Positions 1 to 32,895 of a stretch of DNA of 32,895 nucleotides are shown here, one piece after another; position 1 is the first letter of the stretch; every line of letters begins with the position of its first letter. The position numbers were made by a program, and so were the translations under genes. The stretch lies in the NCBI GenBank assembly GCA_030680955.1, contig JAUXUB010000031.1:1-32895 (forward strand), read 5' to 3'. This DNA is from a bacterium (GTDB taxonomy: Bacteria; Patescibacteriota; Minisyncoccia; UBA6257; JACOXY01). Under the pieces are notes generated by a model, which was not told the DNA's origin, made no database searches, and saw only the letters and a program-made list of their open reading frames with translations.

Positions 1-30
1 AATATAATAAAAACTAATTAATATCTCCGC

Positions 31-128
31 TTGTCGAAGACTTACCTAGATTTTAAGTCAAAATTTTACCCTTCGACAGGCTCAGGGAATAAAATTTTGA
101 CTAATATTCTAATTTTGCAAAAGGTCTA
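31..128. repeat. Intergenic palindromic repeat with hairpin and MITE-like end
   Basis: Perfect 12-bp arms GTCAAAATTTTA (57-68) and TAAAATTTTGAC (90-101) enclose CCTTCGACAGGCTCAGGG, a motif I recognise as a very common dispersed repeat core in CPR genomes. A second TTGTCGAAG at 31-39 can pair with CTTCGACA in the loop. The stretch ends in TTGCAAAAGGTCTA (115-128), which matches the terminal inverted repeat of the MITE-like element at 19267-19426. No gene is visible in 1-145. Confidence 0.6.
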
Positions 129-2052: not shown

Positions 2053-3310
2053 AGATATATCCTTTATCAAAATTATCTACAATTAATCTTTCTGTTTCTT
2101 CGTAACCAAAATATTCCATAAAAATCTGATTCCAAAGTGCTTCTTGATGATGATACAAATATTTAACCATATCTTTTTGTTTCACAAGAGACATGACTGC
2201 GTCTATTAAATTGAACGAAACTAAGTCTTCAATGCCAGAGTCATCTGTAAAATAATCACCAACAAAATCCAAATCTTTCCAAAAATCTAATCCCAATTCG
2301 TTGTGGTCGCCCCCAAGATGGGCAATATCCTGCGCTGCCTTTGTCCAATGAATTGCCTCCGGATTTACATGCGGTTCGAACAACCGCCAATCAAAAAGAT
2401 CGTCTTTTGCTAAATATCTTTGCACTATCATCCATTTTTTGCCTCTATCCTCTTCTTTAAAGCGCTCATCTAGGACATCGCCGCGTAAGGCCGAAGCAAG
2501 CTTAGCGGAATAATCTGCTGGATTTTCTTTGGCATATTTCCGGAATAGATTAGAATAGAAATTAACTTCATGTAAATAATGAAGCACTAAACTAAAAAGT
2601 CGCATAGTCTCGCCTGATGAATCAATTGGAATTGGAATTATAAAAATAACACCGAGCTCTTTAAGATGGCTCACATTGTGGTGCTTCTTTTTTAAAAATT
2701 TCGATGCAACGTTTAGCCACTCGCCATGCAAAACTTTTACTTCAATATCTCGCTCTTCAAAGTCAGCGGGGGTAACATTTTTAAGTTGTTTAAAGAATAT
2801 ATTGTTTAACCAATCTTTATCTTCTACAAAACGAAGTGCGCTATAAATTTCAAACAAGTCATATTTTTTAAGAAGCTCTTCTGGTTTTTGGACTTTAAAA
2901 TAGGCCATCATATTTGGCGGAGGCTCATTTATAAAAAACTCATGAGCAACTTCTCTCTTTAAGAAAAAACCTTTGGGAATCTTTGCGAGGCTAATAGCTG
3001 ATGCAATCAAAACACTTGCACCTGTTTCCCTTTCAAAATTGGTAAACCAAAAATGTTCAGAGAGCTTCTCATCATCTAACTTGGCTTTCTTTATAAGAGC
3101 GCTATAAATATCTTTGGAATTGAGTTCCTTCACGCGAAGCTGCTTCATGCGATCAGCCATTAGAGCTTCATTCTTTTCTATAATTTTCTCTAAACAATTA
3201 TTTTTGCCAATAACTGCAGAAAGGCGCTCGTCTACAATACGCACAACATCTTTATCTGTTCGCAGTATTTTTGCTATTTTTTCATATGGCGTATTAGTTT
3301 CAACTTTCAT
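2042..3310 (-). CDS. Uncharacterised 422-residue soluble protein
   Basis: I do not recognise a family. The protein is soluble, has no signal peptide or membrane span, and is mostly helical in character, with a charged N-terminal third rich in Lys and Glu. Distinctive patches are FFINEPPPNMMAYF, VIFIIPIPIDSSGETMRLF and an Asp/His-rich C-terminal half (HWTKAAQDIAHLGGDHNELG) that could bind metal, although no known metal motif is evident. The ATG at 3310 directly abuts an inverted repeat. It sits between the aldolase and a receiver protein with all genes in the same orientation. The reading frame is long, uninterrupted and in the same compositional style as its neighbours, so it is a real gene of unknown role. 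Confidence 0.75.
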   Translation of the reverse strand: MKVETNTPYEKIAKILRTDKDVVRIVDERLSAVIGKNNCLEKIIEKNEALMADRMKQLRVKELNSKDIYSALIKKAKLDDEKLSEHFWFTNFERETGASVLIASAISLAKIPKGFFLKREVAHEFFINEPPPNMMAYFKVQKPEELLKKYDLFEIYSALRFVEDKDWLNNIFFKQLKNVTPADFEERDIEVKVLHGEWLNVASKFLKKKHHNVSHLKELGVIFIIPIPIDSSGETMRLFSLVLHYLHEVNFYSNLFRKYAKENPADYSAKLASALRGDVLDERFKEEDRGKKWMIVQRYLAKDDLFDWRLFEPHVNPEAIHWTKAAQDIAHLGGDHNELGLDFWKDLDFVGDYFTDDSGIEDLVSFNLIDAVMSLVKQKDMVKYLYHHQEALWNQIFMEYFGYEETERLIVDNFDKGYISLA

Positions 3311-3429
3311 CCCGTTAGAGATAGGACATCAAAGATGACCGTAACTCGTTTAATTTGTTTGCAATCGACGTTTTATTTTTGGCAGACATTAAGTTTCTCA
3401 TAAATATTATTTGGTTATCTCTAATGGGA
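3310..3429. repeat. Interspersed inverted repeat (TCCCGTTAGA family), copy 1
   Basis: Arms TCCCGTTAGAGATA (3310-3323) and TATCTCTAATGGGA (3416-3429) pair with one G-T mismatch and enclose about 92 nt. The same arm sequence family recurs at 30335-30383. A 28-codon ORF (minus, 3315-3401, starting MRNLMSAKNK) fits between the arms and ends inside the left arm. I could not decide whether it is translated. Confidence 0.6.
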
Positions 3430-22186: not shown

Positions 22187-22276
22187 CAATATTTCTAGTT
22201 CAATGAGTAAGCATTAAAAATCGTAAATCCTTTAATGATTTAATAGATCAGCCCTCAATAAGCCTTGGATAAATTT

Positions 22277-24448
22277 ATGCTTAAACTTACAACACCTCTT
22301 TCGGAAATAAGCGGTATTCCCGATAAGTTTTTGAAACGTCTAGCTAAACTCGGTATAAAAACAGCCAAGGATCTTTTGTGGCACTTCCCAACTAGATACG
22401 AAGATTTTTCAAAAATATATTCAATAGACGAACTTATTCCAGGCCAACAAGCAACTATTCAAGGTCAAATAGAAAAAGTTAGTATAAGACGAACGTGGAA
22501 GCGTCAAATGTTAATTGCAGAGGCACATATTGCAGACCAAACCGGAGTTATTCGTGCTGTCTGGTTTAATCAACCATATATTGCTAACACTTTGCGACGA
22601 GGAATGCTTGCAAACTTTGCCGGTAAAGTTCAAGAAGATGATGGCGAACTATATCTTTCAAGTCCAGCATACGAGCGCGTTCGCAATGCCGAACCAAATC
22701 ACACAGCTCGGTTAGTCCCGATTTATCCCGAGACAAAAGGATTAACATCAAAAGGTCTTAGATTTTTAATTAAACCTCTATTAAAACAAGCAGAGCAAAT
22801 AGCTGAATGGATTCCCGATTATATATTAGAATCGCAAAATATTCCCAAAATAAACGAAGCAATCGCCAATATTCATTTTCCTAACGAAATTGAAGATGCG
22901 CTTAGCGCCAAAAAAAGATTTGCATTTGAAGAACTTTTTTTAATGCAGCTTTTTAATTTAAAGGAAAGAGAAGCTCTTGCTAAAGAAAAAGCTCCAGTTT
23001 TTCAATTGACCATTGAAGAACTTAATTTAATAACAGAAAAATTACCTTTTGCATTAACGGGAGCTCAAAACAATGCGCTCACAGAAATATTAGCAGATCT
23101 TACAAAAGGCGCTCCGATGAATAGGCTCCTGCAAGGCGACGTGGGCTCTGGGAAAACAGTAATCGCGGCTATTGCCTCTCTTGCTGCGGCGAAGAACGGA
23201 TATCAAGCAGTATTTATGGCACCAACTGAAGTTTTAGCAGGACAACACTTCACTACACTGCAAAAACTTTTTGCTCCCCTTTCCCAAAAAGTTAGCCTAG
23301 CATTAATAACCGGAAGTGGCGCAAAAATGTTTTTTGAAAATAATTTATCTACTGACACAACAAAGAAAAATGCAAAACTGGCAGTTGAGCGAGGAGAAAT
23401 TAATATTGTAGTTGGCACACACACACTGATTCAAAAAGATATAAAATTTACAAATTTAGGCTTGGTGGTAATAGATGAACAACATAGATTTGGCGTAAGG
23501 CAACGAGCTGAACTTTTAACTCAAAGTAAAGAGGTGGGTTTTATCCCGCATCTGCTTTCAATGAGCGCGACACCAATACCAAGAACTTTAACCCTAACAA
23601 TCTTTGGAGATTTAGATCTCTCTATCATTAACGAAATGCCAACTGGCAGAAAACCAATTCTCACAAAAATCGTCTCCCCTTCAAATCGCGACAAAGCATA
23701 TGCATTTATAAGAGGTCAAGTAAAAAACGGAAAACAAGTATTTGTAATCTGCCCTCGTATTGAGACAACCGATGACTCACAACAAACAACTGACAACAAA
23801 AACGATGGAACACCAGAGTCGTCGGTTGTTGGTCGTAGGTTATTAGTTAACTCTTGGGCTGACGTTAAAAACGTAACCGAAGAATACGAAAAACTTTCTA
23901 AAAAAGTGTTTCCTGATCTTAGAGTAGAAATGCTCCATGGCAAGCTACCAGCAAAAGATAAAATTGAAGTTATGAGAAAATTTCAAAATCGCGAATTTGA
24001 TATTTTGGTTTCAACTTCCGTTATAGAAGTAGGCGTAGATGTACCCAACGCAACAATTATGATGATTGAGTCGGCCGACAGATTTGGACTTGCTCAACTT
24101 TATCAATTTAGAGGCCGGGTTGGTAGGGGCGAGCATCAATCTTTTTGTTTTCTTTTTACCGATTCATCATCTAAATCTACCGAAAATAGATTAAAAGCTT
24201 TAATTGAGGCAAAAAATGGATTTGAACTTGCAGAGATGGATCTAAAACTTCGTGGTCCAGGAGAATTTTTAGGTTCAAGCCAAACTGGAATGCCAGATAT
24301 AGCAATGCGTGCGCTTCAAAATATGGAATTAATAAAGGAAGGTAGAGCGGCAGCAGAAGCAGTACTTGCAAAAAGTTCAGACTTAAAAAAATATCCCTCA
24401 CTTGCCGCAAAAGTATCGGAATTCAAAGCACTAATCCATTTCGAGTAA
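22277..24448 (+). CDS. recG: ATP-dependent DNA helicase RecG
   Basis: About 723 residues from the ATG at 22277 (MLKLTTPLSEISGIPDKFLK); the track's TTG start four codons earlier is less family-like. The N-terminal wedge/OB domain (LLWHFPTRYEDFSK, ATIQGQIEKVSIRRTW) is followed by the SF2 helicase core: Walker A LLQGDVGSGKTVIA, APTEVLAGQH, VIDEQHRFGVRQR, SATPIPRTL, VIEVGVDVPNATIMMIE and QLYQFRGRVGRGEH, then the RecG C-terminal DLKLRGPGEFLG. It remodels stalled replication forks and Holliday junctions. An in-frame insertion of about 30 residues after FVICPRIE contains palindromic repeat sequence. A REP palindrome starts 2 nt after the stop. Confidence 0.95.
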   Translation: MLKLTTPLSEISGIPDKFLKRLAKLGIKTAKDLLWHFPTRYEDFSKIYSIDELIPGQQATIQGQIEKVSIRRTWKRQMLIAEAHIADQTGVIRAVWFNQPYIANTLRRGMLANFAGKVQEDDGELYLSSPAYERVRNAEPNHTARLVPIYPETKGLTSKGLRFLIKPLLKQAEQIAEWIPDYILESQNIPKINEAIANIHFPNEIEDALSAKKRFAFEELFLMQLFNLKEREALAKEKAPVFQLTIEELNLITEKLPFALTGAQNNALTEILADLTKGAPMNRLLQGDVGSGKTVIAAIASLAAAKNGYQAVFMAPTEVLAGQHFTTLQKLFAPLSQKVSLALITGSGAKMFFENNLSTDTTKKNAKLAVERGEINIVVGTHTLIQKDIKFTNLGLVVIDEQHRFGVRQRAELLTQSKEVGFIPHLLSMSATPIPRTLTLTIFGDLDLSIINEMPTGRKPILTKIVSPSNRDKAYAFIRGQVKNGKQVFVICPRIETTDDSQQTTDNKNDGTPESSVVGRRLLVNSWADVKNVTEEYEKLSKKVFPDLRVEMLHGKLPAKDKIEVMRKFQNREFDILVSTSVIEVGVDVPNATIMMIESADRFGLAQLYQFRGRVGRGEHQSFCFLFTDSSSKSTENRLKALIEAKNGFELAEMDLKLRGPGEFLGSSQTGMPDIAMRALQNMELIKEGRAAAEAVLAKSSDLKKYPSLAAKVSEFKALIHFE
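23766..23852. repeat. In-frame imperfect inverted repeat inside recG
   Basis: Left half CAACAAACAACTGACAAC and right half GTCGGTTGTTGGTCGTAG pair imperfectly across a short centre, giving the peptides DDSQQTTDNK and SSVVGRRLLVN. GGTTGTTGG-type words are typical intergenic repeats in CPR genomes. The segment sits in a loop between helicase motifs where ordinary RecG (for example the E. coli enzyme) has only a short connector. Confidence 0.6.
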
Positions 24449-24449
24449 T

Positions 24450-24480
24450 CAATATTCGGACTTGCGAAGTCCGAATATTG
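24450..24480. repeat. REP palindrome copy 1 (RAYT-associated)
   Basis: CAATATTCGGACTT-GCG-AAGTCCGAATATTG has perfect 14-bp arms and a 3-nt loop. It lies 2 nt after the recG stop and 18 nt before the RAYT ATG. Copies 2 and 3 are identical over at least 29 bases. Confidence 0.9.
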
Positions 24481-24498
24481 TGATAACTTATTTATATT

Positions 24499-25212
24499 AT
24501 GAGACCACAAATTGTACCAGGAAATATTTATCATATTTTAAATAGGGGTGTGGATAAACGTAAAATATTTCTAGATGATATGGATTATCTTAGATTTATT
24601 CACGATCTTTTTGAGTTTAATGATGAAAATCCCTCGCTAAGTAATAGCCACCTTTTCAAAGCAATAAAAACATTCGAACCCCAATATTCGGACTTGCGAA
24701 GTCCGAATATTAGTAGGGAACCAAGAAAACTATTAGTGGAAATTTTAGTTTTTTGTTTAATGCCTAATCATTATCATCTTATGGTCAGACCTTTAACTGA
24801 GAAGGGATTGGTAAAATTCATTAAAAAACTAAATATTGGTTACGCCAATTACTTTAATCAAAAATATGAAAGGAGTGGAGCATTATTCCAAGGACGATAT
24901 AAATCAATTGCAATTACAAACGATGCGCATTTTATACATCTTCCATACTATATCCATATGAATCCATTAGATCTATATATGCCAGAGTGGCGCAAGAGGG
25001 AACTTAAAGACTACAATAATGCATTTGCTTTTTTAGAAAAATATAGGTGGAGTAGTTTTCAGGATTATATTGGAAAAAAGAATTTCCCATCAATTACACA
25101 GAGAGATTTCTTATTAAAATTCTTTAATGGACCAGAAGAACATAAAAAATCAATACTTAAGTGGTTAAAAGATTTTGATCCTGAAGAAACAAGGGCCTTG
25201 ACACTCGAATAG
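24499..25212 (+). CDS. REP-associated tyrosine transposase (RAYT, Y1/HUH family)
   Basis: A 237-residue single-strand transposase of the IS200/IS605-related Y1 family. The N-terminus IYHILNRGVDKRKIFLDDMD is typical, the HUH metal motif is MPNHYHLMV, and the catalytic Tyr lies in IGYANYFNQKYERSGALFQG, followed by IHMNPLDL. It nicks and joins DNA at REP hairpins. Three near-identical REP palindromes accompany it: upstream, immediately after the stop, and inside the gene (24682-24711, giving QYSDLRSPNI). The internal copy adds ten codons in a variable loop between the N-terminal region and the HUH motif, so activity could survive. The gene converges on the giant prepilin-like gene. Confidence 0.93.
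   Translation: MRPQIVPGNIYHILNRGVDKRKIFLDDMDYLRFIHDLFEFNDENPSLSNSHLFKAIKTFEPQYSDLRSPNISREPRKLLVEILVFCLMPNHYHLMVRPLTEKGLVKFIKKLNIGYANYFNQKYERSGALFQGRYKSIAITNDAHFIHLPYYIHMNPLDLYMPEWRKRELKDYNNAFAFLEKYRWSSFQDYIGKKNFPSITQRDFLLKFFNGPEEHKKSILKWLKDFDPEETRALTLE
24682..24711. repeat. REP palindrome copy 2, inside the RAYT coding frame
   Basis: CAATATTCGGACTTGCGAAG then TCCGAATATT, identical to copy 1 apart from the last base. Thirty bases equal ten codons, so the frame is kept (QYSDLRSPNI). Confidence 0.9.
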
Positions 25213-25213
25213 G

Positions 25214-25244
25214 CAATATTCGGACTTGCGAAGTCCGAATATTG
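25214..25244. repeat. REP palindrome copy 3
   Basis: Identical 31 bp to copy 1, starting 2 nt after the RAYT stop. All three good copies have CGA 4-5 nt 5' of the hairpin (CGAGTAAT, CGAACCC, CGAATAGG), a possible guide-recognition tract. Confidence 0.9.
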
Positions 25245-25359: not shown

Positions 25360-28300
25360 TTAACGGGGGCGGGGTTGTTTGAGTTGCTCAAGGATATTCA
25401 AGCGGTCTTTTAGGAAATTATTTTTTATTTTAAGTTCGCGCAATGATTCAATTGCGTGCATCAAGAAAGCGGTGCCATAATCAACTCGCTTGAAACCTTT
25501 ATCGTCAGTTGAAACCAGTTCTGGGAATACTTTTTCTACGTCTTGCGCAATTAAACCAAGATTTTGAGATTCACCTTTTAAATGTAATTGAGGATATTCA
25601 TTAGCGCGCCAATTGAAATATGTCGGCTTTAATTGAATGAGTTTATCTAAAGAGCCAGTAAGCGGAATAAGATTTTTCTTGAGGCGTAAATCAGAATTGC
25701 AAGTTCCAACTGGAGAGCCAGGCGTCATAGGAGTTGAGGTGGCACGAACACCATCAAATCTTTTAACGCAACCGAACGACCCAGAAGTACCAATGCGCAT
25801 ATCACCACTTATCATAAGTGCTTGACTAGGTTCAACATTTCCAATTCCAACGAAACCAGAGGCACTTAATGTCATTAGATTTGTGAAAGACGAAGACATA
25901 ACCCTAAGGTAATTGTTATTTGCTGGCCCACTACCGTAAAAATCAGCCACGGCAACAAAAGTGTTATCGCCATAAGCAACACCGCGCCAATCGTTATCAG
26001 CTGGATTAAGCCGGGATGTCCACGTAATTCCATCAGGCGAGGTCATAATACGATTACCTGAACCACCAGTACTTACGGCTACAAATAAACCACTGCCATA
26101 AGCGATTGCTTGCCAATTATTATCAGCCGCAGCGATTCGCATAGTCCATGTTCCAGTTCTTCCTGTAGGCGAAGTCATAACTGCATTTAAATCACCTACA
26201 GCAGTGTTCGCCACAGCCACAAAAGTGGTGGTGGCGACACCATTTATAATTGGAGTGCCGTAAGTTACGGCTTTCCACAATTTATCTAATGTAGGCGAGG
26301 CAGTTGCTTGCAATGCCCAAGTTATGCCATTGGGCGAAGTCATAACTCGTTGACCCAATCCATCTTTTGAAACGGCCACAAAAGTGGTGGTGGCGACACC
26401 ATTTATAATTGGAGTGCCGTAAGTGACAGATTGCCATGAATTGTCTGGGGTGGCGGCACCAACAAAAGACCAATCTTGACCATTATTAGTTGAATACATA
26501 GCATGTTTTGTGCCTCCAGTACTTGCTACAGCAACAAAAGTTGGAGTTTTAATAGTATTTATAATTGGTTCGCCATAAGTAACAGATTGCCAATTTGCGT
26601 CTCCATCAATCTCTATATCTGGGGATAGTGCCCAAATAATACCATCAAGCGAAGTCATAACACGGTCACCACGACCAAGCGTGCCATCATTTGCCACAGC
26701 CACAAAGACTCCATTGCCATATGTAACAGATTGCCATGGATGACTAGGGGGGGTGTCATTTGACTTGCGGGTGGTCCAAGCTATGCCATCGGGAGAGGTC
26801 ATAACTCTACTATTTGTTCCATCACTTGCAACGGCTACAAAAAGACCCTCACCATAAGTGACAGATTGCCATTTGTCATTATCCGGAGTAACTTGTTCTG
26901 CCCAGCTTCCATTAAAAACCGTCGCAGTCATTGCTTGATAACCAGAAGTATCACCAACAGCCACAAAAGTATTATTGGCATAAGTAACGCTATTCCAAGT
27001 ATTAATTGGAGACGTAGCCCTTGTTGTCCAAGTGATACCATCAGATGAGTACATAACACGCGTGGTAGGCAAATTAGAAGCTACCGCTACAAAACCACCA
27101 TTGCCGTAAACAACAGACTTCCAACTATGTGCAGTAGTCGTATTCCCGGGAAACCAACTATTACCATCAGTCGAATACATCGCCTGCCCACCAGTTTCCA
27201 CGGCTACAAAACGATTAAGAACACTACTAAAAGCGATAGAAGACCAAGCTTTTGATTTGGTATCAGCGTCAGTGCTAAGAGTCCAATTAGTTTTGCCATT
27301 AAGAGACCACATAGCGCGTCCATTAGCACCGCTAGATGACACAGCGACAAAGCGATCAGTGCCATAAGTAACAGACTCCCAATTGTAGTTTTCGGGAGAA
27401 ACTCTATTTGTCCATGGATCAGTTATTCCCCCATCCGATGAAGTCATTATGTTATTATTAGAAGTCGCACCAACAGCCACGAAGAGATCATTGCCATACG
27501 TTACGCTTTGCCAAGTGCCAGCGGTAGTAGTCGCGCGAGTTGTCCAAATTATGCCATCAGGAGAAGTCATAACACGATTATCAACACCGTTTGAAGATAC
27601 CGCTACAAAAAGACCATTTGGTGTTGCACCGCTTGAACCACTTTTACCAAAAGCTACAGATTTCCAATTATTATTAGCTGGAGTAACGCGATTTGTCCAG
27701 TTAACACCATCAGGAGAAGTCATAACATGATTAAAATTACCTGCGGAACTGCCATTTGCCACTGCTACGAAAAGACCATTACCATATGTTACAGAATTCC
27801 AAGAGCCATTATTGGGTGTAGTACGAGAAGTCCAATCATTGCCTATCGCATTATTGCCACCAAGTTGAAGATGTAGAGTGTTATCATTTTTAGCACTCAA
27901 AATCCAAAAAGGATTAGACTGACTCAAGGGCACCCCACTATAAAAGAGAGTCATCGCTGGAGTAGAACCATAAATTTGCAAACTGGTCTGCGGAGTTGTT
28001 GTACCAATTCCTACATTGCCACTGGCACTAATACTTAACCCTCCACTGCCTTTGGTAGACATAGAAATATAGCCATTGCTCCCCGCACCACCAGCAAGCA
28101 ACCGAATGCCTTTTATAATTGAAGTTGTACTAGACCCAATTTCAATTTGGTCTAATGCATTGACATTTAAAATTGGCTGGTTGCTGCCAGTAAAAAATCT
28201 TCCAAAAATCGGCTGGTTATTACTGTCTATAAATAATGAACCAGATTGAGGATCCCCACGAGTTACGGTACCAGAACCCCCAAAAATAGTTGCCCCTTGC

Positions 28301-30312
28301 GTAACGTGGAGCGCGGCTCCAGGAGTCGTTGTTCCAATTCCCAAAATTCCAGTGCTACTGCCCATTATACTCATACCACCTTGGAAGATATTATTGTGCG
28401 GAGTTATTTGGTAGTCAGCTTTGCCGGAAATCATAACACATCTACTCGGCCCACCACTTTTACAAGACGTAGCATTATTATATGAAGTCACAGCTACAAA
28501 AATACCATTGCCGTAGGTGACGGAATCCCAAGCATTGTCAGCAGCAGAATTGCGAAGAGTCCAATTGATACCATCTGACGAAGTCATAACACGATTCCCA
28601 GTGCCAGTAGGCGCTACAGCAACAAAAAGACCATTGCCGTAGGTGACGGAATTCCAAGCATTGTTGACTGGGGTAATACTAGAAATCCATGGGATAGTTC
28701 TGCCACCATCAGGTGAAGTCATTGCTTGATTAGGGCTACCATTTCCAGCAACAGCCACAAATAAACCATTGCCGTAGGTGACGGAATTCCATAAGATTTG
28801 AGGAGGGTTAGTTATTGGGAATGACCAATTAATACCATCCAAGGAATACATAACTCTTTGGGCGCCAGAAGAAGCCACAGCTACAAAGAGACCATTGCCG
28901 TAGATGATAGAAAACCATTGATTATTTGCGGGTGTATCACGAAGAGTCCAATTAATACCATCTGGTGAAGTCATAACACATTTATCTTGGCCAGCCATGC
29001 AAGTACCATAATCACTTTCCATTACAACCACAAACAAGCCATTGCCATAGGTTATATACCGCAAATAATTTAGGGCGGAATTGCGACGAGTCCAATTGAT
29101 ACCATCTGGTGAAGTCATAACTCCATTACTAACACCAATCCCAGCCACTGCAACAAATAAACCATTGCCATAGGTAACAGATCGCCATCCAAGATCTGCG
29201 GCAGAATCACGAGCAGTCCAATTTATGCCATCTGGTGAAGTCATGACGCGTTGCCCAGCAACAGCACCATTATCTGCCACAGCAACAAATAAACCATTGC
29301 CATAGGTAATCCCAATCCAATTTTTATCAGTTGAGGTTGAAAGAGTCCACTCCGTTCCCTTCGAAATAATATTTCCAACTACTTCTAATTTTTCACCAGG
29401 AATCCATGTAGTATTTGTCCCGATTAAAACGTTACCGCTTGTGCTTGCTATAGTTAAAATATCTTTTTCCAATCCCGTAGTACTCGCGAGTATCCGAAAA
29501 TTATTCTGAAAATTATCTAGAACGAAATACTTATTGCTAGAAGTTCCCAAAAGCTTTAGCTGGCCGCCTTCATCGGCAGAATTTATATTACCCAGGACCA
29601 AACGATCAGAAGAATCATCTACATCTGGCTGTACATCTCTTGCAGTACTTACTCCAATTCCCACAACACCAGAAAATCTTGCATTCCTCCATCTTAGAAG
29701 TGTAGTGGTAGAGCCAATGTTTTGCGTGTCGGAAACCAAAGGAACTAAATTATCATCAAAAACTGCCGCGGTAATTCTGTCTAGTGTCGTAACAAATTGT
29801 TTTGTTGATGAGCTTACGCCCGTAGCAGTAGGATTATAATAAAGCGTAAAACTTACTTGAACTGCATCTTTGGAAGGCGGATTAAAAATTCTTATAAATG
29901 AAACGGTACTGGAGACAACAGAAACTTTATCTGTTGTAAGGAGAGAAGTGGAAGCTGTACCTATTCCATATAAAGTTGAGGATCCTGTATCCATATACAT
30001 ATTTGTTCCAGAGGCATAGTAAACAACATAATCACGACTACTTGACGCGAACCTTAAAACTAATTTTGGAGATGGGGTGGAAGTGGAAATATCTATAATA
30101 CTTGAATCTCTAACATCGCGACTTATTCTCTCTAAAATAAATCTAGCTTGTTCAGAAACTTCTCGCGCTGAAGTACTTTCATTTTGAATTCTAAGAGTAG
30201 TAAGAAGTGTGCCAACTGCAAGGCCTGCCACAATTACAACAATGCCAGTATATAAAATAGCCTCTAATAATGTGAAACCGTTATTTATTTTGTTTAATTT
30301 TATGTAATTCAT
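25360..30312 (-). CDS. Giant prepilin-like protein with beta-propeller repeats and peptidase S74 chaperone
   Basis: About 1650 residues from the ATG at 30312. Residues 1-40 are a class III-type prepilin signal (NNGFTLLEAILYTGIVVIVA, with G/F cleavage site and Glu+5); to about 190 follows a PulJ/GspJ-like minor pseudopilin body. Then come GIGTTTP-type tail-fibre segments and two arrays of 40-55-residue repeats (consensus W.SVTYGNGLFVAVA....RVMTSPDGINWT.R): 7 copies at about 328-628 and 14 at about 828-1480, suggesting one plus two seven-bladed propellers. The C-terminal 111 residues (from Ser1540) are a peptidase S74 domain with the SDLRLK Ser-Lys pair and a terminal coiled coil. It is presumably exported by the type IV pilus machinery, with the S74 domain aiding trimer folding and self-cleavage. 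Confidence 0.85.
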   Translation of the reverse strand: MNYIKLNKINNGFTLLEAILYTGIVVIVAGLAVGTLLTTLRIQNESTSAREVSEQARFILERISRDVRDSSIIDISTSTPSPKLVLRFASSSRDYVVYYASGTNMYMDTGSSTLYGIGTASTSLLTTDKVSVVSSTVSFIRIFNPPSKDAVQVSFTLYYNPTATGVSSSTKQFVTTLDRITAAVFDDNLVPLVSDTQNIGSTTTLLRWRNARFSGVVGIGVSTARDVQPDVDDSSDRLVLGNINSADEGGQLKLLGTSSNKYFVLDNFQNNFRILASTTGLEKDILTIASTSGNVLIGTNTTWIPGEKLEVVGNIISKGTEWTLSTSTDKNWIGITYGNGLFVAVADNGAVAGQRVMTSPDGINWTARDSAADLGWRSVTYGNGLFVAVAGIGVSNGVMTSPDGINWTRRNSALNYLRYITYGNGLFVVVMESDYGTCMAGQDKCVMTSPDGINWTLRDTPANNQWFSIIYGNGLFVAVASSGAQRVMYSLDGINWSFPITNPPQILWNSVTYGNGLFVAVAGNGSPNQAMTSPDGGRTIPWISSITPVNNAWNSVTYGNGLFVAVAPTGTGNRVMTSSDGINWTLRNSAADNAWDSVTYGNGIFVAVTSYNNATSCKSGGPSRCVMISGKADYQITPHNNIFQGGMSIMGSSTGILGIGTTTPGAALHVTQGATIFGGSGTVTRGDPQSGSLFIDSNNQPIFGRFFTGSNQPILNVNALDQIEIGSSTTSIIKGIRLLAGGAGSNGYISMSTKGSGGLSISASGNVGIGTTTPQTSLQIYGSTPAMTLFYSGVPLSQSNPFWILSAKNDNTLHLQLGGNNAIGNDWTSRTTPNNGSWNSVTYGNGLFVAVANGSSAGNFNHVMTSPDGVNWTNRVTPANNNWKSVAFGKSGSSGATPNGLFVAVSSNGVDNRVMTSPDGIIWTTRATTTAGTWQSVTYGNDLFVAVGATSNNNIMTSSDGGITDPWTNRVSPENYNWESVTYGTDRFVAVSSSGANGRAMWSLNGKTNWTLSTDADTKSKAWSSIAFSSVLNRFVAVETGGQAMYSTDGNSWFPGNTTTAHSWKSVVYGNGGFVAVASNLPTTRVMYSSDGITWTTRATSPINTWNSVTYANNTFVAVGDTSGYQAMTATVFNGSWAEQVTPDNDKWQSVTYGEGLFVAVASDGTNSRVMTSPDGIAWTTRKSNDTPPSHPWQSVTYGNGVFVAVANDGTLGRGDRVMTSLDGIIWALSPDIEIDGDANWQSVTYGEPIINTIKTPTFVAVASTGGTKHAMYSTNNGQDWSFVGAATPDNSWQSVTYGTPIINGVATTTFVAVSKDGLGQRVMTSPNGITWALQATASPTLDKLWKAVTYGTPIINGVATTTFVAVANTAVGDLNAVMTSPTGRTGTWTMRIAAADNNWQAIAYGSGLFVAVSTGGSGNRIMTSPDGITWTSRLNPADNDWRGVAYGDNTFVAVADFYGSGPANNNYLRVMSSSFTNLMTLSASGFVGIGNVEPSQALMISGDMRIGTSGSFGCVKRFDGVRATSTPMTPGSPVGTCNSDLRLKKNLIPLTGSLDKLIQLKPTYFNWRANEYPQLHLKGESQNLGLIAQDVEKVFPELVSTDDKGFKRVDYGTAFLMHAIESLRELKIKNNFLKDRLNILEQLKQPRPR

Positions 30313-30334
30313 ACTTGTTGCCACTAATTAATTT

Positions 30335-30383
30335 ATCCCGTTAGAAGTAGGACTCGAAACGAGTCCGCAACTTCTAATGGGAT
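30335..30383. repeat. Interspersed inverted repeat (TCCCGTTAGA family), copy 2
   Basis: ATCCCGTTAGAAGT pairs with ACTTCTAATGGGAT, with an inner perfect GGACTCG-AAA-CGAGTCC. It lies between the two giant genes and overlaps the stop codon of the right-hand one, encoding its last residues (SH). The arms match the repeat at 3310-3429. Confidence 0.7.
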
Positions 30384-32895
30384 TCCAACGCCTTTATTCG
30401 CGCTTGGATAGAATCATTTTCTGCGTTTAGTTCTGTAACCGATTGGATTACACGCATTAAAAGATCCGAGCTGTAGTTAACTCTCTTAAATCCGTCTTCG
30501 CCAGTTGAAACCAGTTCTGGGAATACTTTTTCTACGTCTTGCGCTATTAAGCCAAGATTTGTTATATCACCGCTTAGATATAACTGTGGAAATTCATCAG
30601 CACGCCAATTAAAATATGTTGGTTTTAATTCCACAAGTTTATCTAGCGAGCCAACTAGTGGTACAAGATTTTTCTTAATGCGGAGGTCGGAAGGGCAAGC
30701 CCCCCACCAAGAAGTATAGTTAAAGTTTTTAACACAACCTGATGCCGCAGAAGTGCCAATGCGCACATCGCCAAAAACTTGAAGTTTATCAGCTGGGGTC
30801 GAAGTTCCAATCCCAACATTGCCATTTTTATCAATTACTAAATTAGCTTTATAAAAAGAATAGTCTTTAGTGGTTTCAATATAAAAATAACCGCTGCTGC
30901 TGGCGCGAAATACCCAAGCTGGATTGCCATCACCTAAAGGTGCATCGCTATCAAAAAAAGATAGGCGCGGATTAGAACTTACAATTTGTAAAATACTCTG
31001 TGGTGATGTTGTTCCAATTCCCACCCTACCACTTGAGTCAATTGTCATTCTTGGAGCGACGTTGCCATTAGTCCAAAAAGAAATAGTACTTGATGGTGTA
31101 GCGCCAGAACCATTGCCGGCAAGCAACCGAATTCCTTTTATAACCGAATCATTTGTGCTAGTTCCAATATCAATTTGATCGGCTGAATTAACATTCAAAA
31201 TAGGGCGATGGTAGCCTAATCCACCCCCACCAATAAACTTCCCCATAATTGGCTGATTATTAGTATTCAAAAATAGTGAACCTGTTTGAGAATCAGTTCG
31301 AGTTACAGTAGATGTCCCACCAATAATAACACCGCCAACAATATGGAGTGCTCCTTCAGGAGTTGTTGTGCCAATACCTAAAATTCCATTGCTCGGCCCC
31401 ATAATGCTCATCCCTCCTTGGTAGATGTTATTAGTTGGAGTTATTTGATAGTCTAGTTTGCCGGAGACAATTACCTTTTCATTCACATCCATATAAGACA
31501 CGGCTATGAAGAGTCCATTACCATAAGTAACGTCATTCCAATGTCCCGAAAAAGGCGTGGTGCGAAGCGTCCAATTGAAACCATCAGGTGAAGTCAAAAT
31601 ACATTTAGGTGCGCCTCCAGCGCAAGGTGCATAACCATACATCCCAGCCACAAAGAGACCGTTGCCGTACGTAGGTGGACCTAAGGTTGAAGCGGGTGTG
31701 TTTCTAGGTAACCAATCGATACCATTTGATGAAGTCATTACACAATTATATGGGCTTGCTCCACAATCCCACGCCGTCGACACAAATTTTCCATTGCCAA
31801 AAGTAACCCCATTCCATTCACCTGTTGGAGTAACATTACTTAAATTCCAAATAGCGCCATCCATAGAATACATAGCACGTTTAGTAGCATTAAAACCACC
31901 GCCATTTGCCACAGCTACAAAGCGCCCATTTCCATAAATAATATCACTCCAAATATTAGTTGGCGTAGTTATAGGCGTCCAATTGATACCATCAGGACTA
32001 GTCATGACACAATTACTCTGAGCTACCGATGGTAAACATGAGGTACTTGCTTCCTGACCAGCTACGGCTACAAATAAGCCATTACCATAAGTTACTGAAT
32101 ACCAAGCAGATGCGGCGGCAGCTGCACGAAGCGTCCAATTTTTACCGTCAGGCGAAGTCATGATACATCTATTATCAACGCCTTTCTTACAAGTACCAAA
32201 AGTAGAAGTTGCGACAGCCATAGCTACATAAAGTCCATTGCCGTAAGTGACAGTATTCCATAAATTACTAGCAGGAATAGTACTTGTTGCCCAATTCATA
32301 CCATCAGAGCTTGTCATAACACAATATTGTGTACCAGCAGCTTTCGTGCAAGGCGCTGTACCAGAGTTTGCACTAGCAACAGCAACAAAAATTCCATTAC
32401 CATAAATAACAGATTTCCAATCTTGTCTAACTGGTATGTTATTACTTGCTTTCCACTCCGTCCCTTTGGAAATAATATTTCCAACTACTTCTAGTTTTTC
32501 GCTTGGTGCCATAGTAGATGAAGTTCCAATTAAAACATTTCCGTAATCTGTTACGCTTAATCTTGTTGATAATTGCCCTGTGCTTGTGGTCATTATTCGC
32601 AAAGTATTACTTGAGTTATCAATTACTGTATATTGGCCAGCAAGTGGTCCCAAGAGTTTTAATTGTCCACCCTCGGACGAAGTTAAAGGATTTATTGGGC
32701 CTAAAACCATTCTATCAGAATAATTTATCCCTTCCTCAAACGAAAATAGTGTGGCACCATCAAAATCTTTCCCAACCCCAATATTTCCAGTAAAACGGCC
32801 ATTCTTCCACTGTTTTAAATTCGTGCCAACATTTTTTTGATTCCCACTTTGCTGTGGAATTAAATCAGAATCAAAAACAGATGCGAAAACATTAC
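30374..32895 (-). CDS. Second giant propeller/S74 protein, 5' end beyond the window
   Basis: The reading frame is open to the right edge; upstream of the track's Met it reads FASVFDSDLIPQQSGNQKNV and onward, homologous to AAVFDDNLVPLVSDTQNIGS in the neighbouring protein, so the true start lies outside. Visible parts are the DRMVLGPINP connector, one array of 7 'YGNGLFVAVA...MTSPDG.NWT' repeats, two or three VGIGTT(T/S)P tail-fibre-like segments, and a C-terminal S74 chaperone with SDLRIK (Ser-Lys pair) and a coiled-coil end. Five of seven repeats carry a Cys pair in the same loop. A prepilin N-terminus is expected by analogy but cannot be seen. It is a tandem paralogue, 60 nt upstream of the other giant gene. 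Confidence 0.85.
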   Translation of the reverse strand, partial: NVFASVFDSDLIPQQSGNQKNVGTNLKQWKNGRFTGNIGVGKDFDGATLFSFEEGINYSDRMVLGPINPLTSSEGGQLKLLGPLAGQYTVIDNSSNTLRIMTTSTGQLSTRLSVTDYGNVLIGTSSTMAPSEKLEVVGNIISKGTEWKASNNIPVRQDWKSVIYGNGIFVAVASANSGTAPCTKAAGTQYCVMTSSDGMNWATSTIPASNLWNTVTYGNGLYVAMAVATSTFGTCKKGVDNRCIMTSPDGKNWTLRAAAAASAWYSVTYGNGLFVAVAGQEASTSCLPSVAQSNCVMTSPDGINWTPITTPTNIWSDIIYGNGRFVAVANGGGFNATKRAMYSMDGAIWNLSNVTPTGEWNGVTFGNGKFVSTAWDCGASPYNCVMTSSNGIDWLPRNTPASTLGPPTYGNGLFVAGMYGYAPCAGGAPKCILTSPDGFNWTLRTTPFSGHWNDVTYGNGLFIAVSYMDVNEKVIVSGKLDYQITPTNNIYQGGMSIMGPSNGILGIGTTTPEGALHIVGGVIIGGTSTVTRTDSQTGSLFLNTNNQPIMGKFIGGGGLGYHRPILNVNSADQIDIGTSTNDSVIKGIRLLAGNGSGATPSSTISFWTNGNVAPRMTIDSSGRVGIGTTSPQSILQIVSSNPRLSFFDSDAPLGDGNPAWVFRASSSGYFYIETTKDYSFYKANLVIDKNGNVGIGTSTPADKLQVFGDVRIGTSAASGCVKNFNYTSWWGACPSDLRIKKNLVPLVGSLDKLVELKPTYFNWRADEFPQLYLSGDITNLGLIAQDVEKVFPELVSTGEDGFKRVNYSSDLLMRVIQSVTELNAENDSIQARIKALESH

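Follow-up and report, generated by a model that had tools for sequence, protein, structure and literature searches.

A candidate three-gene adhesin locus in a patescibacterial genome: a prepilin-fused propeller-S74 fibre and two probably secreted paralogues

Little is known of the way in which Patescibacteria recognise and hold on to their hosts. In Nanosynbacter lyticus TM7x, the minor pilin PilX2 bears a hepta-bladed propeller and is required for normal host binding: deleting it lowered the share of hosts bound from about 10.6% to 4.6%, roughly a halving (PMC12206443). By that description PilX2 resembles A1, one of the three genes presented here, in being a patescibacterial minor pilin with a seven-bladed propeller; unlike A1, it has an RCC1-type propeller and no predicted PilD signal, and it is not reported there with S74 or tandem paralogues. 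The S74 fibres (MATs) of Bdellovibrio cut themselves at the Ser of SDxxxK, are displayed on the predator surface and serve prey handling. They resemble A1-A3 in their phage-like stalk, their S74 domain, for which self-cleavage is predicted in A1-A3, and their multi-copy repertoire; they carry a signal peptide, have an N-terminal domain of their own (~130 aa), and are reported there with neither a pilin nor a propeller array (PMC10769870). Two known recognition devices, a propeller-bearing minor pilin and an S74 phage-like fibre, are united in the single gene A1, which suggests that phage-type receptor-binding modules have been placed on the pilus of an epibiont. A further described combination involves IPR030392, which we take to be the S74-type domain. 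IPR030392 is among the 15 commonest extra modules or architectures of modular type IV pilins, which, like A1 and like PilB and PilC of Streptococcus sanguinis, consist of a small pilin with a grafted functional module (PMC8179133). The combination of prepilin and S74 is thus already catalogued; A1, which combines modular pilin, propeller pilin and S74 fibre, differs from the catalogued forms in its three propellers and stalk, its length of 1654 aa and its two pilin-less, probably secreted paralogues.

The window, i.e., the whole stretch of DNA analysed, comprises 32,895 nt and ends with contig C45 of genome G000. The genome contains three S74 genes, A1 and A2 in the window and A3 on contig C17 (locus L005). 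Their features are as follows.

22265..24448 (+): RecG, which bounds the syntenic interval on the left
25360..30324 (-): A1, 1654 aa, prepilin-connector-propeller-stalk-(14 blades)-S74 (open reading frame and module parse)
30262..30279 (-): prepilin cleavage motif GFTLLE of A1, class III signal peptide (N-terminal sequence)
28408..29361 (-): first seven-bladed propeller of A1, in one group with the A2 and A3 propellers (blade parse, AlphaFold2, tree)
25879..27852 (-): 14-blade block of A1, two propellers within a stalk loop (blade parse, tree, alignment)
25363..25695 (-): S74 domain of A1, predicted cleavage at Ser1544, SDLRLK (Pfam/motif)
30336..30382 (no strand): palindrome TCCCGTTAGA...TCTAATGGGA, 47 nt, holding or overlapping the TAG stop of A2, member of a dispersed family
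30374..32895 (-): A2, connector-propeller-S74 fibre, probably of the secreted type, N-terminus probably at C17 positions 60..1
31436..32458 (-): seven-bladed beta-propeller of A2 (blade parse, AlphaFold2/Foldseek)
30377..30691 (-): S74 chaperone/autoprotease domain of A2, from the predicted cleavage site Ser735, SDLRIK
L005 467-3112, C17 (-): A3, complete, 881 aa, one propeller and S74 (open reading frame)

A2 was read as an open reading frame at 30374-32893 (-) with 839 readable residues; its 5' end is missing because the contig stops at base 32895. The module parse confirmed the original prediction of a same-strand tandem paralogue directly upstream of A1 with a matching order of connector, propeller, VGIGTxxP stalk and S74. 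The two proteins are about 49-59% identical over the common modules (49% in the connector, VFDSDLIP... in A2), which excludes chance likeness. The short gap with a palindrome was also found: the spacer measures 49 nt to the GTG of A1 or 61 nt to its ATG, and the palindrome 47 nt. PF13884 was detected in A2 (E=1.5e-11, motif SDLRIK), and the C-terminal Ser-Lys motif SDxxxK is intact as SDLRxK in A1, A2 and A3. Blades were counted as exactly 7 in A2 (one of them degenerate, around residue 404), 7+14 in A1 and 7 in A3, 35 in total (5x7); as 7+14 is a multiple of 7, the predicted contrast of three propellers in A1 against one in A2 is right. AlphaFold2 models of A2 and of the N-terminal part of A1 show seven four-stranded blades, with block pLDDT of about 70-92 over the propeller and low confidence outside it in the monomer model. 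Foldseek matched seven-bladed YCF48 (TM 0.71 by target) and kelch propellers.

We read A1-A3 as an adhesin locus that arose by old tandem duplication, with A1 on the pilus tip, A2 and A3 secreted, and propellers that bind other cells, at a probability of about 0.68. A1 would be processed by prepilin peptidase and become a minor (tip) pilin of a type IV pilus, and A2 and A3 would be exported by the Sec pathway. The stalks would trimerise with the assistance of S74, which would then detach by self-cleavage just ahead of the conserved Ser (SDLRxK), and the ligands of the propellers may be glycans or proteins of other cells. In the predicted ancestry, ((A2,A3),A1), A2/A3 would have lost or replaced the prepilin, A1 would have acquired its 14-blade block, and short tracts would later have passed from copy to copy. 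The set likely serves host-cell recognition, and it provides concrete proteins with testable ligands.

The fibres might instead be secreted for adhesion to self, biofilm or inert surfaces. Adhesins of such build can bind many things and no ligand is known, but the cultivated relatives are obligate episymbionts in which a pilus propeller protein acts in host binding (PMC12206443), so that we consider this unlikely. Also unlikely is an arrangement of A1, A2 and A3 in one mixed trimer, with a single pilin-bearing chain carrying the S74-folded fibre at the pilus tip; its three chains, alike in connector, propeller, stalk and S74, would come from the three co-linear genes. A trimer tethered to a pilin would need three pilin anchors or mixed chains; the mixed trimer, if true, would explain how a trimeric fibre is held on a pilus that takes up its subunits singly.

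The modules of A1-A3 are phage-tail-like in sequence, a likeness that gives no direction of transfer. The part comprising stalk and S74 matches many PHROGs tail-fibre families and, weakly, the phage long tail fibre 6f45 and the solved chain 8ojn ('cell wall surface anchor family protein'). The latter presumably belongs to the Bdellovibrio fibre work. Relatives of the propellers were confirmed in IMG/VR contigs at least 557 times (best listed E=3e-104). Those listed (L205-L276) share the seven-fold propeller with A1-A3, their best segments being about 50-65% identical; they usually have 7 blades, also 14, 21, 28 or 35, sometimes occur as tandem ORFs and, in the viral contigs sampled, have genes for baseplate wedge, tail or tape-measure proteins as neighbours. 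Unlike A1-A3, none of the 85 viral propeller ORFs examined contained a detectable S74 domain or prepilin. Three viral contigs (L218, L221, L227) encode single open frames of more than 3200 aa with more than 40 propeller blades. That the locus is a remnant or domesticated phage tail, its genes being prophage receptor-binding genes and not cell-surface adhesins, accords with the matches of propeller, stalk and S74 to phage tail families, but is quite unlikely: neither the 33-kb window nor C17 showed any recognisable structural phage gene, the prepilin part of A1 belongs to a cellular family that is order-wide, and the genes lie not among phage morphogenesis genes but among housekeeping, syntenic neighbours kept in G001, the sole other genome of the family.

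The adhesin reading separates A1 from its paralogues by their N-termini. A1 begins with NNGFTLLEAILYTGIVVIVAGL, which has the GFTLxE motif and the hydrophobic helix of a class III signal peptide. Pfam N_methyl is weak in A1 (15.9 bits, under the cut-off of 21.2) and above the cut-off in a relative, L015. The prepilin-connector part of A1 is homologous to prepilins in 97 of the 244 genomes of the order (E<=1e-20, a count that includes a few matches to other parts of A1), usually present singly and with highly variable C-termini. Type IV pilus operons are found in the same genome on contigs C32 and C58. The main one, on C32, contains a short protein of prepilin, connector and a single VGIGTxxP (L015 4521-5528), possibly a minimal form of the fibre fusions.

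A3, a complete reading frame, starts with the signal-peptide-like MKRSPLFYIVLIFVLSLISF, and neither a class III signal peptide nor GFTLxE was found in it. At the left edge of C17, positions 60 to 1 (-) encode MKKNSSFYIVIFFMLFAVIF and run in frame off the contig. This edge is identical to the A3 start at 35 of 60 nt and scores 42 against the first 19 residues of A3, the next of 766 Met-initiated alternatives reaching 27; its ATG overlaps the stop of a GIY-YIG gene (ATGA). On the C45 side, A2 reads on with NVFASVFDSDLIP. The edge of C17 is therefore very probably the start of A2, with an ordinary signal peptide and a gap of 1+3k nt between the contigs. The probable start codon and signal-peptide-like N-terminus of A2 were thus located in the flanking sequence, and, given the contig join so derived, A2 has no class III signal peptide. 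In aligned junctions the prepilin family mostly shows R[VIA][SNTGQ]A ahead of A.FD(S), whereas the junctions of A3 (KVIA|A) and A2 (NVFA|S) are hydrophobic where the prepilin forms are polar. Such starts and junctions leave only A1 pilus-linked by its own sequence. The original prediction had called all copies pilus-linked, which fails for two of the three, the prepilin motif occurring in A1 only; the locus, which repeats the A1 build in probably secreted copies, corrects that idea. A2 could still have a prepilin past the contig edge and all three fibres be alternative pilus tips, as might be suggested by the clear prepilin fusion in A1 and by at least seven further genomes of the order in which a single ORF contains both prepilin and S74. 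This is very unlikely, given that A3 has no prepilin, that a start homologous to that of A3 stands on C17 exactly where A2 should begin, that NVFA|S departs from the R-x-[SNTGQ]-A pattern, and that no matching orphan prepilin was found elsewhere in the genome.

The position of C17 was judged from gene order. In G001, RecG is followed by one prepilin fusion, an ORF, MutM, TsaD and ValS. In G000, the end of C45 carries RecG, a transposase, A1 and A2, and C17 carries GIY-YIG, A3, uppS, a recombinase, MutM, GIY-YIG and TsaD, in orientations that match the order of C45 and G001. Because of this match and the probable A2 start at its edge, C17 most likely adjoins C45, which would give the order A3, GIY-YIG, A2, A1 between RecG and MutM-TsaD. 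No exact k-mer overlap was found between the ends of C45 and C17, and the terminal 120 nt of C45 gave a single significant match to other contigs, 25 nt within A3. The expectation that copies continue past the right edge is borne out by A3, as placed by synteny and by the probable N-terminus of A2. A large serine recombinase (L005 4519-6042) lies between A3 and MutM and was not seen in that interval of G001.

In the one genome of the genus on which the copy comparison rests, pairwise identity among A1, A2 and A3 is 49-67% for the proteins and 56-71% for the DNA, and identity at fourfold sites is 0.29-0.50 (chance about 0.3), but 0.54-0.57 in S74; the duplication is therefore old. That a single gene was duplicated or made chimeric in assembly, as a contig breaking off inside A2 might suggest, is practically excluded by the nucleotide divergence, by fourfold sites near saturation outside S74 and by a complete A3 on a separate contig with different flanks. 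In S74, A1 and A2 have an exact tract of 43 nt in common, and two blades of A1 have one of 50 nt; each was reached in 0 of 2000 synonymous reshuffles, so that local exchange and blade duplication have occurred and the predicted recombination is upheld; 29-nt tracts between A1 and A3 and between A2 and A3 were reached in 36 and 40 of 2000.

The 14-blade block of A1 (residues 825-1482, 658 aa) is a clean insertion, its flanks aligning across it with A2 and A3. In the propeller tree, the first propeller of A1 forms a clade with those of A2 and A3 (99/90), within which A2 and A3 are nested together (100/92). The two inserted propellers fall outside this clade on long branches, a placement that is suggestive. 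Descent of the block from the first A1 propeller was considered and is not supported by the tree, long as its branches are. Insertion into a stalk loop and separate placement in the tree together indicate that the difference in propeller number probably did not arise by simple duplication. Of the suggested diversification by duplication and recombination, old gene duplication with local exchange thus stands, and gain of propellers by simple duplication probably does not.

S74 occurs in 41 of the 244 genomes of the order. Tandem fibre genes recur in two of them: in G063 the interval from RecG to TsaD holds two S74 genes together with one for a prepilin-connector protein, and G142 has a pair identical in the first 40 residues, with S74 in the first. 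Copy number among relatives differs accordingly, from the one gene of G001 to these tandem S74 fibres, as had been proposed for comparison. G142 (L101; L099 and L100) also contains a pair of near-identical loci of 1007 aa, separated by 19 kb and flanked by the same genes. Among 80 RecG loci of named genomes, a prepilin-connector was found near RecG in four and S74 in none; an order-wide RecG-fibre locus was accordingly rejected in favour of one limited to some families. The search for cellular propellers covered Patescibacteria and yielded few relatives within the order (G082, with a prepilin, and G195) and only G264, G506 and G561 in the class-wide sample, G506 having a PilX-like start ahead of its propeller. 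No relatives of A2 were found in the scan of named genomes.

The palindrome between A2 and A1 is unique in its exact form, but its outer arms are also those of a dispersed family of palindromic elements with fixed arms (TCCCRTTAGAR...YTCTAAYGGGA), variable interior and a length of 47-118 nt. Sites are at 30336-30382 and 3310-3429 of the window, at L005 60-337 and 358-475, and on C10, C20, C48 (two) and C53 of G000; a reversed control pattern of the arms gave 0 matches. The arm pair at L005 60-337 encloses most of a GIY-YIG nuclease gene, which suggests a full form carrying GIY-YIG and short derivatives. The stops of A2 and A3 lie inside palindrome arms, and the start codon of A2 abuts one arm. 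Another type of repeat accompanies a mobile element.

24499..25212 (+): gene resembling REP-associated tyrosine transposases (Y1_Tnp), a short way downstream of A1
24450-24480 and 25214-25244: identical 31-nt palindromes flanking the transposase-like gene

The A2-A1 palindrome is not a copy of this flanking repeat, from which it differs in sequence. Two further copies of the 31-nt palindrome exist, a near-identical one at 24682-24712, inside the transposase-like reading frame, and a more diverged one on C17 next to MutM.
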